From: Candidatus Zhuqueibacterota bacterium
Lineage (GTDB): Bacteria > Zhuqueibacterota > Zhuqueibacteria > Zhuqueibacterales > Geothermadaptataceae
Length of the DNA stretch: 41,264 nucleotides
NCBI GenBank assembly: GCA_015485525.1
Contig: WFTM01000484.1
Span: 1-41,264 of the forward strand
Direction: 5' to 3'
Shown: positions 10,250 through 33,244 of the stretch, one piece after another
Layout: each line of letters begins with the position of its first letter
How positions within the stretch are numbered: the stretch's first letter is position 1
Translations under genes and position numbers: made by a program
Notes under the pieces: generated by a model
Databases searched by the model: none
Seen by the model: only the letters and a program-made list of their open reading frames with translations
Told to the model about the DNA's origin: nothing

Positions 10250-12379
10250 ATGTGTAAAAATCGGGTAATGGCTAAAACAGGGATGCTGCACACCATGCTC
10301 AGGAAGAGTTTGCTCCTGCTTCTTTTGATCCATCCATCCATGCTGACGGCCCGTCAGGCCTCCGGCAGTCATCCGCCTTTTGAATATCTGATCACGGTAT
10401 TCAGTGATCGCGGCATGCACCTCATCCAGCCGGATTACGGCTACCTCACCCTTTCGCCTCCGGGAGCACATCTGCTGGCACAGATCGTAAAAACAGGTAC
10501 CGGCGAGCAGCCCCCCTGGCTGCTGACAGAAACCGACCTGCGTGAAAAACAGCGGGTTTTATTTTATCAGTTTGAAAAAAACAGCCACTCCGAGGGGCCG
10601 AAGCTGGCGTTCTGGTCACAGCCGTGGGATGCCAATTCCGATGGCGATGTGTATGACCCCGGCGACTGGCTTCCCGCGGCTGTCTGGCAACAACGGCATC
10701 TGCCGGAGACGGGCGGGTTGCAGTGGAATCCTGCAAACGTGCGTGCGGAAACCCTGCGTCCGGTTGTTGCAGCCTTCGATCATTCACCCGCAGGGGATCA
10801 GCTTGCCGGAGGACGGTTGCATTTTACCGGCCCGAATGGTGCTGCTTACGCACGTACCGACTCATCCGGGAAGATTACTGCGCATTTTGAGACCATGCGC
10901 AGTCTCTGGCTGGCCGCAGACCTGCCGGTCACGCCGTTTTATGATGGCAGTGCACCGCTGCTGCGCGGGCAGCAGGAGCAGAATATCCGGCCATTCCAGA
11001 AGGCGATCATCACGCTTGCGCGCTGGCTCGACAGCGACCGCGATGGCCTGGTGCAGAAACGGGAAATCCGTCCTGTCAGAGATGCACGCAGCAAAAAGCC
11101 GGTGCAGTTTTTTGGCACAGTCGCAGTTGATATCCCCGGATGTGTGCGCTGCCATGCTTCTGAGCAGGCGAATGGAGAGCAGTATGGTCTGTGGAAAGCC
11201 GAGTTTACGTTCTGGAGTAAGTCCATCCCCGGGACCTCGGCTTATATGGCTAACCAGCGCGCTGCTGCTGTTTCGATTCTGGAGATTCATGACAGAAAGC
11301 ATGGAACGGATTTTCTCGCCCGATACGACGCTGCCGACCGATCCGGGGTTCTGCACACGCGCCTGGGCCGCTCTTCAGTTCTGTGTGCCGATTGTCATGG
11401 CAAGACAGCAGAACCGGTTGCTGTTTCTCTGCATAAAAGCCACCTGGGAGCGCTGCCGCGCGGGGATGTGTTTGGCCGGCCTGTGGATTGCCAAAGTTGC
11501 CACGCAGGCCATAAGCAGTCCGGCAGCCTGCTCGAGTATGCCCTGGACCAGGCCGGGCTATTCCGTGGCGGTGATATCCGTGAATACCGCGGCGGGCGTT
11601 TTCTCGGCCGGGATGTCCATGCCAATCCTGCGGCGCAGCGGGTGCTGAAAACGCGCTCTCATCTCACAGCGGCGGGCGAATGGCTGAAAGCGAACGTCAT
11701 GCTGGATGGCCGGGGTCTGTATTGCAGCAACTGCCACAATATGGCATCACAGCTTCTGGCGGTGAGTGATTCCCTGGAAGATGTACTCGAACTTCGCGGC
11801 CGGACACTGCGCGACAGGCCATTGCCGGAGCTCCTGGCCGGGTTGCGAAAGGCAGGTGGAGCAGAGTTCGATTCCTGGCAGGCACAGCAGTTTTTCGACC
11901 CTCTTGTCAGCGATACCGCTGCTGTGGCGCTGCCCTGGCTGAACAAAACCGGGTTGCTGAAAAGCCTGCCGCGCTGTGCAGACTGTCACCAGCCGCCGTT
12001 TGTGGAAAGCCTGGCTGGTATTTATCCTGAAGGTGGGAAAAAGGGCATGCTGGAGCGTATGAGTTTCAGCGCCGGGCATGCAGGCCTGGCCTGCAGTAGT
12101 TGTCACCAGAGTGCGCACGGGCAATACCCGGTGGCTGCAAGTGGCGTGGATCCTGTGACCCTCGAACAGGCACGCTCACTCAATCCGGATGGCTCACCCG
12201 GGCCGGTAACCTGCGCCGCGTGCCACGTAGTGGATTCCGAAGGTGTCCCCCTGAGCCTGCCGCCCGCTGTTCTGGCCGCTTTCCCGGCGCAGAGCTATCC
12301 GACGCGTTATGAAAAAGCTGTGGCATGGGCGCATACCCGGCGCAGTGCAGAGGAAAAGGGGAAAGGATCGCCCAGATGA
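10250..12379 (+). CDS. secreted multiheme c-type cytochrome (7 CXXCH)
   Basis: Signal peptide (start 10250 or 10268); CVRCH, CADCH, CQSCH, CSNCH, CADCH, CSSCH, CAACH motifs. Confidence 0.9.
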   Translation: MCKNRVMAKTGMLHTMLRKSLLLLLLIHPSMLTARQASGSHPPFEYLITVFSDRGMHLIQPDYGYLTLSPPGAHLLAQIVKTGTGEQPPWLLTETDLREKQRVLFYQFEKNSHSEGPKLAFWSQPWDANSDGDVYDPGDWLPAAVWQQRHLPETGGLQWNPANVRAETLRPVVAAFDHSPAGDQLAGGRLHFTGPNGAAYARTDSSGKITAHFETMRSLWLAADLPVTPFYDGSAPLLRGQQEQNIRPFQKAIITLARWLDSDRDGLVQKREIRPVRDARSKKPVQFFGTVAVDIPGCVRCHASEQANGEQYGLWKAEFTFWSKSIPGTSAYMANQRAAAVSILEIHDRKHGTDFLARYDAADRSGVLHTRLGRSSVLCADCHGKTAEPVAVSLHKSHLGALPRGDVFGRPVDCQSCHAGHKQSGSLLEYALDQAGLFRGGDIREYRGGRFLGRDVHANPAAQRVLKTRSHLTAAGEWLKANVMLDGRGLYCSNCHNMASQLLAVSDSLEDVLELRGRTLRDRPLPELLAGLRKAGGAEFDSWQAQQFFDPLVSDTAAVALPWLNKTGLLKSLPRCADCHQPPFVESLAGIYPEGGKKGMLERMSFSAGHAGLACSSCHQSAHGQYPVAASGVDPVTLEQARSLNPDGSPGPVTCAACHVVDSEGVPLSLPPAVLAAFPAQSYPTRYEKAVAWAHTRRSAEEKGKGSPR

Positions 12380-13476: not shown

Positions 13477-13567
13477 CATCTCGTCACACCGCTCCAGCGG
13501 TGTGACACACCTTGCGACGCTCCCGCGTCGCTACCACCCAACCCGATCAACCGGCACGATCCTGTCA
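13477..13567. repeat. dispersed double-palindrome repeat, copy 1
   Basis: CATCTCGTCACACCGCTCCAGCGGTGTGAC...GCGACGCTCCCGCGTCGCTACCACCCAACCCGATCAACCG; near-identical to 15262..15350. Confidence 0.9.
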
Positions 13568-15181
13568 TGGTGTGCCAACGCCTGCGTACGCGATACCGGT
13601 CAGAGTGGCCATGTCGCGGTTGAAGGTCGTGATGTCGTCCGCATTGAACTGGTTGAGATGGTCGTGCCCGCATGCACGCGCCATCACCTGCATCAGCTCG
13701 ACGCTGGCGGTGAAGAAATTCTCCAGTCTGCGCGCAGAAAGTTCGATGTCCAGCCTGCGGCGCAGCTCTTTCTTTTGTGTCGCAATGCCCACAGGACAGT
13801 TATCAGTATGGCAGGCGCGCATGGCCTGACAGCCGATAGCCTGCATGGCTGAATTGGAAAGAGCGATGGCATTTGCACCGAGAGCGAGTGCTTTGATGAA
13901 ATCCGGCGCTGTGCGCAGGCCCCCGGTGATGATCAAAGTGATATCTTTTCTCCCTAATTTGTCGAGATGGCGCCGGGCCCGGGCAAGTGCCGGAATGGTG
14001 GGCACGGAAATATGGTCGCGGAAAAGAAGTGGTGCTGCGCCGGTGCCGCCGCCACGGCCGTCGAGAATGATGTAGTCAACACCGATACGGAGTGCCGCTT
14101 CGATGTCAGCCTCGATATGATTCGCCGAAAGCTTGAAGCCGACAGGGATGCCGCCGGTGCGTTCCCGGACTTTTTGTGCGAATTCCCGGAAATCATCTTC
14201 ACAGGTCATGTCCGGGAAGCGCGGTGGGGAGATAGCGGGCTCGCCTTCTGGTATGCCACGCACCGTGCTGATTTTGCCTTTGTTTTTATGCCCCGGCAGG
14301 TGTCCGCCTGTTCCGGTTTTGGCTCCCTGGCCACCCTTGAAATGGAATGCCTGAACCTTGTCCAGCAGCTCGAAGGTAAAACCGAATTTTGCTGAAGCCA
14401 GCTCATAAAAATAGCGGCTGTTCTCCTGCTGTTCCTCGGGCAACATTCCGCCCTCACCCGAGCAGATACCGGTGCCGGCCTTTTCCGCGCCGCGGGCCAG
14501 GGCAATCTTGGCTTCCTCGGAAAGAGCACCGAAACTCATATCCGAAACCAGCAGAGGAATGTTCAGGGTGAGTGGCTTTTCAGCATTCGGCCCGATCACA
14601 ACCTCCGTGCCGACGGCGACGTCTTCGAGATGGGGCAGGCGGGCGAGCTGCGCGGGAAGTATCTGGATATCGTCCCATCGGGGCAGCTGGTCATAGCTCA
14701 CGCCCATGGATGCAATTGGCCCGTGATGTCCGGTCTTGCGCAGACCATCGCGGGCGAGCTGCTGTATTTCCGCTGCTTTGGGCTCCTCGGGTGTCGGCTG
14801 GGTTGCCAGGTAAGGGCCCAGATAATCGTTGCGCGGAATCACTTCCGGGTGTTCCTGCTCCCAGTGCCGGATTTCGTGCTCATCGACCCAGACCTTTCCA
14901 TCTTCGACCAGGGCTGTGAATTTGTGCAAAACTTCGTGGTTGTCGTATTCACTGATGCCGGTGTCGTACCGATAGTCCCAGAAATGCACACCGCAGATCA
15001 GGTTGTCGCCTTCGACGTAGCCGTCGGCGAGCAGTGCGCCACGGTGCAGGCACCGGCCGTAGAGGACCGAAACTTCTTCTCCGTAACGAATGACGACCAG
15101 GTCGGTGTTGCTCACCAGTGCATGTGCCGGCTTGCGGTCCTGCAGGGCGTTCCAGTCAGCTATGGCGATTTTCTTTTTCAC
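13565..15181 (-). CDS. Rieske [2Fe-2S] domain fused to glutamate synthase FMN-binding domain
   Basis: N-terminal CLHRGALLADGYVEGDNLICGVHFWDY (CxH-N16-CxxH); then VSDMSFGALSEEAKIALARGAEKAGTGICSGEGGM, GGQGAKTGTGGHLPG, ILDGRGGGTGAAP, the GltB central/FMN domain. Confidence 0.9.
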   Translation of the reverse strand: MKKKIAIADWNALQDRKPAHALVSNTDLVVIRYGEEVSVLYGRCLHRGALLADGYVEGDNLICGVHFWDYRYDTGISEYDNHEVLHKFTALVEDGKVWVDEHEIRHWEQEHPEVIPRNDYLGPYLATQPTPEEPKAAEIQQLARDGLRKTGHHGPIASMGVSYDQLPRWDDIQILPAQLARLPHLEDVAVGTEVVIGPNAEKPLTLNIPLLVSDMSFGALSEEAKIALARGAEKAGTGICSGEGGMLPEEQQENSRYFYELASAKFGFTFELLDKVQAFHFKGGQGAKTGTGGHLPGHKNKGKISTVRGIPEGEPAISPPRFPDMTCEDDFREFAQKVRERTGGIPVGFKLSANHIEADIEAALRIGVDYIILDGRGGGTGAAPLLFRDHISVPTIPALARARRHLDKLGRKDITLIITGGLRTAPDFIKALALGANAIALSNSAMQAIGCQAMRACHTDNCPVGIATQKKELRRRLDIELSARRLENFFTASVELMQVMARACGHDHLNQFNADDITTFNRDMATLTGIAYAGVGTP

Positions 15182-31925: not shown

Positions 31926-31960
31926 AAGGGCCTCTGCCCGGTGAAATCAGACAGAGGCCG
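31926..31960 (-). terminator. hairpin downstream of the putative selenoprotein gene
   Basis: Minus strand GGCCTCTGTCTGATTTCACCGGGCAGAGGCCCTTGTTTTAG: 8-bp stem, weak T-tract. Confidence 0.45.
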
Positions 31961-32000: not shown

Positions 32001-32102
32001 CCGTTATCCCGGGCAAAGCGAAGCGCTGTGCCGGAATTTTTTCGGGATGACTGCTCTCAGTTTTTGCTGCTCAGGCAGACTGGTGAAAAAGTGCAGCCGC
32101 GG
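32001..32102. repeat. dispersed repeat family 2, copy B
   Basis: CCCGGGCAAAGCGAAGCGCTGTGCCGGAATTTTTTCGGGATGACTGCTCTC...GGCAGACTGGTGAAAAAGTGCAG. Confidence 0.7.
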
Positions 32103-32106
32103 ATTG

Positions 32107-33096
32107 TTACGGCACCTGCTGCCGCTTTGGTGCCGACCGTTTCGGCCGCGCATAGCGTGCCCTGGCTGCTTCTTCAAAACGTTTGAGAATATGTGCTACC
32201 TCGTCACTCGATTTGCGCACGCTGGTATCGAGTACGATAACCGATGCTTTGGCCTCAACACGATCGGCTTTTTTCTCCAGAGTGACAAAAGCCATTTCCC
32301 GACCACGGTCGCCCGGGCCGACCATGAGCATGCCACTGGCTGCATCGGTCTCGGTACGCATGGGCCTGCCCTCGCCACTGGAAAGAAAGAACAGGTCGAA
32401 ATCCTTGTACTGCTTTGCCAGTTTACGGGCTTCGGCACGCGGGCCGTGGAAAATCAGAATGCGGAAATCAACCTTTTCGTTATTAAATGCTGCGAGCGCT
32501 TTGTCGATTGTTTCCGCCACCGGCCCAATCCGGTAGTTGCGGAAGTAACCGTTATAGCGTTTGGAAATGGCCGACACCACGCCGATTTTAGCGCCGGCAC
32601 GTTTGATGACCTGAAACGGGCTCGTGATCGGTGCGCCGTCTTTGGTGGAGGCATTGCCGGTGAGGTAAACCGCCTTTTTCGGGCGCGGGCTTTTGAGCCA
32701 CTGAAAGGATGTGTCCGCAAGATCGCGCTTGCCGATCGCGATGAGATCGTATCCCAGTTCTTCCAGGGCTTCCCAGAGCATGGGTGTAAGCCAACCACGC
32801 CGCTTGCTGATAGACTCGCCCACATCACCGCCATCGACGAGCAGCAGGTCCGGGTAGAGTTTTTTCAGACTGTCGATTACTGTATATCGCCTGGCCAGAC
32901 CGCCACGCCTGCTGCCGCTTCAGCCACAGGGCAGGAAATAGCCGTGCGATGAGCTGCTGTACATGATGTGCAGCCGGACATCCTTGCCCTGTTTTGCCTG
33001 TCCCTGCATACCCGCCGCTGGGAGCAGAAAAATCAGCGCAAGAAATACAGTCGCATACATGCGTTTCTTCATCTTCATCACTTTGTTTCCGTTCAT
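32107..33096 (-). CDS. secreted UshA/metallophosphatase-like protein with predicted selenocysteine at in-frame UGA (32922..32920)
   Basis: Continuous minus-strand frame from ATG 33096 (GGAG SD upstream): MNGNKVMKMKKRMYATVFLALIFLLPAAGMQGQAKQGKDVRLHIMYSSSSHGYFLPCG[UGA]SGSRRGGLARRYTVIDSLKKLYPDLLLVDGGDVGESISKRRG... to 32107. The ORF track shows only the part after the UGA, from GTG 32823. No other stop interrupts the frame. Confidence 0.8.
32889..32908 (-). promoter_or_regulatory. bacterial SECIS-like stem-loop immediately downstream of in-frame UGA
   Basis: RNA: UGA AGCGGCAGCAGGCGUGGC GGUCUG GCCAGGCGA; stem GC(G)UGGC/GCCA(G)GC with one G-G mismatch, loop GGUCUG beginning 18 nt after UGA. Confidence 0.75.
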
Positions 33097-33244
33097 CAGT
33101 AACTCCGTTTTTTACTGGTCCTGCGATAGCTCTCCGGAAAGCCAGCTTACCATTTTCTTCTTCCTGATTCCTGAAGTTGCCTCCCGGTTGATTACAATAC
33201 GCGCAGAATCCTGTTTTTGCTGCTGCTCGTTTTTTTCGCAAAAT

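Follow-up and report, generated by a model that had tools for sequence, protein, structure and literature searches.

A divergent, haem-less UshA-like protein that almost certainly carries selenocysteine in a Cys-Gly-Sec motif

The window analysed here, i.e., the whole stretch of 41,264 nucleotides of contig WFTM01000484.1 from a Candidatus Zhuqueibacterota bacterium, carries a gene for an UshA-like protein (32107..33096, minus strand) composed of 329 codons and a TAA, the frame of which (33096..32107) has a single interruption, the TGA at 32922..32920, which forms codon 59 in the context GYFLPCG-U-SGSRRGGLARRYTVIDSLKKLYPDLLLVDGGD. The initial annotation had described such a frame together with a ribosome-binding site, a start codon and a signal peptide upstream of the UGA, and each of these elements was recovered. 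Reading the sequence, a Shine-Dalgarno-like CGGAG (33103..33107, minus strand) lies 6 nt 5' of the ATG at 33096, and is also present upstream of the ATG of locus L024, and the N-terminus (approximately residues 1-35; 32992..33096, minus strand) is signal-peptide-like, with Lys/Arg followed by a hydrophobic stretch, a low pLDDT and weak conservation. The P-C-G-Sec motif (Pro56, Cys57, Gly58 and the putative Sec59) occupies 32920..32931 (minus strand), and a terminator-like hairpin of 12 pairs is found downstream of the gene (31929..31959, minus strand), in a region where the count of such sites is approximately that expected from shuffled sequence.

An orthologue with 97% identity, in which the UGA is retained, is found in genome G001 (DRLW01000704.1), and the nearest named record to the gene is HyVt-473, a Bacteroidetes MAG. 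A 301-codon open frame that runs antisense to the gene (32047-32952, plus strand) is probably an effect of codon bias. Elsewhere, the window encodes a 709-residue multihaem c-type cytochrome (10250-12379, plus strand) with at least seven CxxCH and matches to Cytochrome_C7 and MtrC-like models, and a protein in which an N-terminal Rieske domain is joined to a glutamate-synthase-like FMN domain (13565-15181, minus strand).

The homologue search covered 147 genomes, i.e., that of the window, those of its relatives and a sampling from outside the phylum, and it returned homologues in 80 of them, the majority with exactly one internal TGA. In the 70 aligned homologues, the column following PCG holds UGA in 56 and Cys in 14, with no other residue, which places the UGA on the second conserved Cys, as had been proposed, and both Cys57 and Cys/Sec59 are invariant across these 70 sequences of the family. 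Within the window's order, all 12 full-length copies, one per genome, have the UGA. The dN/dS ratios of five genome pairs lie between 0.00 and 0.34 before the UGA and between 0.07 and 0.14 after it, a pattern indicating that purifying selection acts on both flanks, and no disruptions of the gene, which would have been a sign of a pseudogene, were seen in the close relatives. An apparent internal TAA at locus L043 was rejected, as it falls outside the trimmed gene.

The window's genome, a 493-contig assembly that is 96% complete, also encodes the full set of genes for which the initial annotation had proposed a search, i.e., SelA (568 bits), SelB (336 bits), a tRNA-Sec that scores above the Rfam cut-off and is located close to selB on the same contig, and SelD, which has its own in-frame TGA at the CG-U site. 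This SelD (locus L022, G000:C336) is a selenoprotein in its own right, and a hairpin with a GGUC loop follows its UGA at approximately 17-20 nt.

Given the Cys/UGA column, the Sec machinery, the undisrupted relatives and the low dN/dS ratios, the in-frame stop (32920..32922, minus strand) is almost certainly a selenocysteine codon, as had originally been argued. Standard gene calling halts at the UGA and restarts at the GTG at 32823, as might be expected if the UGA were a nonsense mutation in a decaying pseudogene or the end of a truncated leader peptide, but an identical UGA is kept in the 56 homologues, which are spread over many families, and the selection on both flanks and the lack of further disruption in the close relatives also run against this reading. 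The presence of a UGA within an open frame would likewise be compatible with a code in which the lineage decodes UGA as another residue, such as Trp or Gly, but all the homologues that lack the UGA carry Cys at this column, UGA is the terminal stop of many genes of the family, including L028 and L030 of the window's own family, and the complete Sec machinery is encoded. Conservation and the Cys column rule out both explanations, the probability of either one being negligible. Routine annotation truncates the gene at the UGA, and its reading as selenocysteine corrects the gene model.

Immediately past the UGA, a hairpin with the stem GC.UGGC/GCCA.GC (32889..32908, minus strand) presents GGUCUG (32901..32896) in its apical loop, which starts exactly 18 nt past the UGA. 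The similarity to the SECIS of E. coli fdhF, which had been noted initially, holds for the spacing and the loop, given that the GGTCTG of fdhF, measured on NC_000913.3, lies at the identical 18-nt distance, although the stem sequence is unlike that of the window and the protein is a different one. The 12 codons past the UGA (32884..32919, minus strand) present strong synonymous-site conservation between the genera of the order, in which same-residue pairs have identical codons in 84% of cases, versus 45% over the remainder of the gene and 61% in the best 12-codon stretch elsewhere in the gene. In these codon comparisons, the conservation of synonymous sites is confined to the hairpin region.

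The limits established for the bSECIS are a loop of 3-9 nt with a G within its first two positions, an upper stem of at least 4 bp, a distance of 16-37 nt from the UGA, and an MFE of -7.5 or lower (PMC13188914), and the hairpin of the window falls within all of them, with its 6-nt loop GGUCUG, 4-bp upper stem, 18-nt distance and -13.8 kcal/mol. On the other hand, the hairpin folded alone is no stabler than shuffled sequence (z = -0.63), 44 of the 200 shuffled versions having done as well, and its stability was dropped as stand-alone evidence because of this, so that the folding check proposed for the region upheld the predicted loop and not an unusual stability. No covariation of the hairpin pairs was found within the window's order, where it is uninformative because the hairpin hardly varies. 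When three distant members that share the +18 register are included, two of the pairs differ at both of their positions and still pair, a weak signal in that the covariation measure is higher for one slid control. The Rfam search at the locus returned only chance matches.

In contrast with the +18 register of the window, the other families of the class have a different hairpin, with the loop at +28. Among 46 Sec sequences, the pair at the third position of this hairpin is T-A in 31 cases and C-G in 12, and two of the 45 sequences that could be tabulated are off-diagonal (Fisher p = 6e-9, on counts not corrected for kinship). This pattern is absent from the 14 Cys sequences. This shift of the SECIS register provides a natural example of hairpin evolution under amino-acid constraint.

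The structure of the protein, as predicted by AlphaFold on the alignment (pLDDT 90), has CD73 and UshA as its best PDB matches, with a TM of approximately 0.7, which supports the UshA/5'-nucleotidase metallophosphatase fold that had been suggested, and the Pfam scan of the window protein found nothing above the cut-off. What is shared with E. coli UshA and human CD73 is the fold of the N-terminal metallophosphatase domain, whereas the window protein has no C-terminal substrate-binding domain and bears an extra Cys-Gly-Sec. The selenoprotein identity, the incorporation of selenocysteine by the hairpin of the window and the UshA-like fold, taken jointly, are highly probable.

The dimetal ligand set of the UshA/5'-nucleotidases, i.e., D-x-H, GD, GNHE and GHxH, is incomplete in the window protein. 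Aligned to UshA, ligands D41, N116 and H117 are replaced by S49, K123 and R124, and GHxH by SGEG, and in the family as a whole the column of N116 is most commonly Glu, with the GNHE motif being mostly GE[RK][DE]. The equivalents of UshA H43, D84 and one further His are retained, and given that the phosphatase-site residues His51, Asp91 and His217 persist, the protein may still bind some metal. The initial annotation had envisaged a redox or metal/Se active centre, and of these two options the former is the one favoured, given that the replacement of several metal ligands of the phosphatase site renders a metal/Se centre unlikely. These replacements also make a Cys-Sec redox function likelier than phosphatase activity.

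In a sister family within the window's order, the gene is extended by a C-terminal domain, which contains four CxxCH and matches cytochrome c554, and this tetrahaem fusion is also found in many distant relatives, whereas the window's family is devoid of it. A phylogeny built on the UshA domain recovers the order as a single supported clade, one half of which has the short form and the other the tetrahaem form, and there are at least nine changes of architecture across the whole tree. Within the flanks read, there is no multihaem protein or cytochrome gene beside the short-form genes, nor is there any conserved neighbour gene or shared operon around them that would point to a substrate. A stand-alone tetrahaem-type protein that matches the same part of the model is nevertheless encoded elsewhere in the window's genome and in five relatives with the short form; in the window's genome, this c554-like candidate partner (L010, G000:C183, 1426-2181, minus strand) matches the C-terminal part of NF041198 and adjoins a multihaem cytochrome gene. 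In one genus of the family (L105 and L106), the gene is preceded by a putative membrane-protein gene, with a thioredoxin-like gene one further upstream in L105.

The gene, the Sec machinery, the conserved UGA and the hairpin are direct observations, from which a mechanism may be proposed. SelB bound to the hairpin would deliver Sec-tRNA-Sec, and the ribosome would then make the 329-residue protein, which is probably exported. The mature protein would consist of a single domain of the metallophosphatase fold, with a degenerate dimetal site and the invariant Cys-Gly-Sec after the first strand, in which Cys57 and Sec59 would most likely be the reactive pair of a periplasmic thiol/selenol redox protein, rather than of a phosphatase. 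Considering that this domain is fused to the tetrahaem module both in the sister family and in numerous distant relatives, an exchange of electrons between the Cys-Sec pair and c-type haem is probable, and the short form, given its lack of this module, would depend on another protein as its partner, for which the stand-alone tetrahaem protein is a possible candidate. This last step is a conjecture, because no cytochrome gene is found beside the short forms, and it is put forward only tentatively.

A redox function of the window protein is moderately probable, based on the replaced ligands, the invariant Cys57 and Cys/Sec59, and the tetrahaem fusions of the relatives. The selenoprotein might instead still be a metallo-esterase or a SoxB-like sulfur hydrolase, with the Sec binding a substrate or metal, as the UshA/CD73 fold, the retained His51, Asp91 and His217, and the scores of the SoxB model in some relatives (44 bits in L029 and 108 bits in L037, far under the cut-off of 550) would allow, but this is rather improbable in the light of the three substituted ligands, the loss of GHxH and the prevalence of Glu in the N116 column. 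If the Cys-Sec redox function is correct, the comparison of the haem-fused and haem-less sisters would offer a handle on the uncharacterised UshA-like selenoproteins, pointing to c-type-haem-linked redox work and not to the removal of phosphate.

It is possible, although doubtful, that the window's clade represents a separate subfamily of Cys-Sec redox enzymes that has largely lost the metal site and shed the fused tetrahaem, passing electrons to a stand-alone tetrahaem cytochrome, with a SECIS register that differs from that of the related families. In this case, a recoding hairpin can be rebuilt inside the conserved coding stretch of GGLARR.

UshA-like CxU selenoproteins (COG0737) were listed in 2008 by Zhang and Gladyshev in their analysis of the Global Ocean Sampling data (PMC2398784), and UshA-like selenoproteins are also included in later reviews, where the motif of NF049981 is given as CxxU (PMC13188914). 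The novelty implied by the description of the candidate as unannotated does not stand, given that the family has been known since 2008 and has NCBIfam models, the cut-offs of which this member does not reach; a literature search for selenoproteins of the Calditrichaeota found none. The window's genome also encodes a 280-aa Cys paralogue (L012, G000:C101, 1330-2169, minus strand; DCGC-GEDPAGGLGRR), which belongs to a separate Cys clade.

The window protein shares with NF041198 (UshA_like_PCGU) and the UshA-like CxU proteins a signal peptide followed by an UshA-like domain, the PCG-U/C motif after the first strand and then GGLARR, as well as a bacterial SECIS and the existence of Cys homologues. 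It differs in its degenerate phosphatase site, in its score of 97.7 bits, which is below the cut-off of 275, and in having no CxxCH, the C-terminal c554-like tetrahaem region (approximately positions 399-519 of the 519-position model) being absent. In the class of the window's genome, this cut-off is exceeded in 5 of 63 genomes, i.e., the selenoprotein is retained in an entire class of uncultured bacteria, mostly under the score used for naming. With NF049981 (UshA_like_Sel_2), the protein has in common a single UshA-like domain and its identity as a selenoprotein, and it differs in scoring 58.6 bits, below the cut-off of 140, and in having CxU rather than CxxU. Among the known UshA-like CxU selenoproteins, the window protein represents a divergent, short and haem-less member, and not a new kind.
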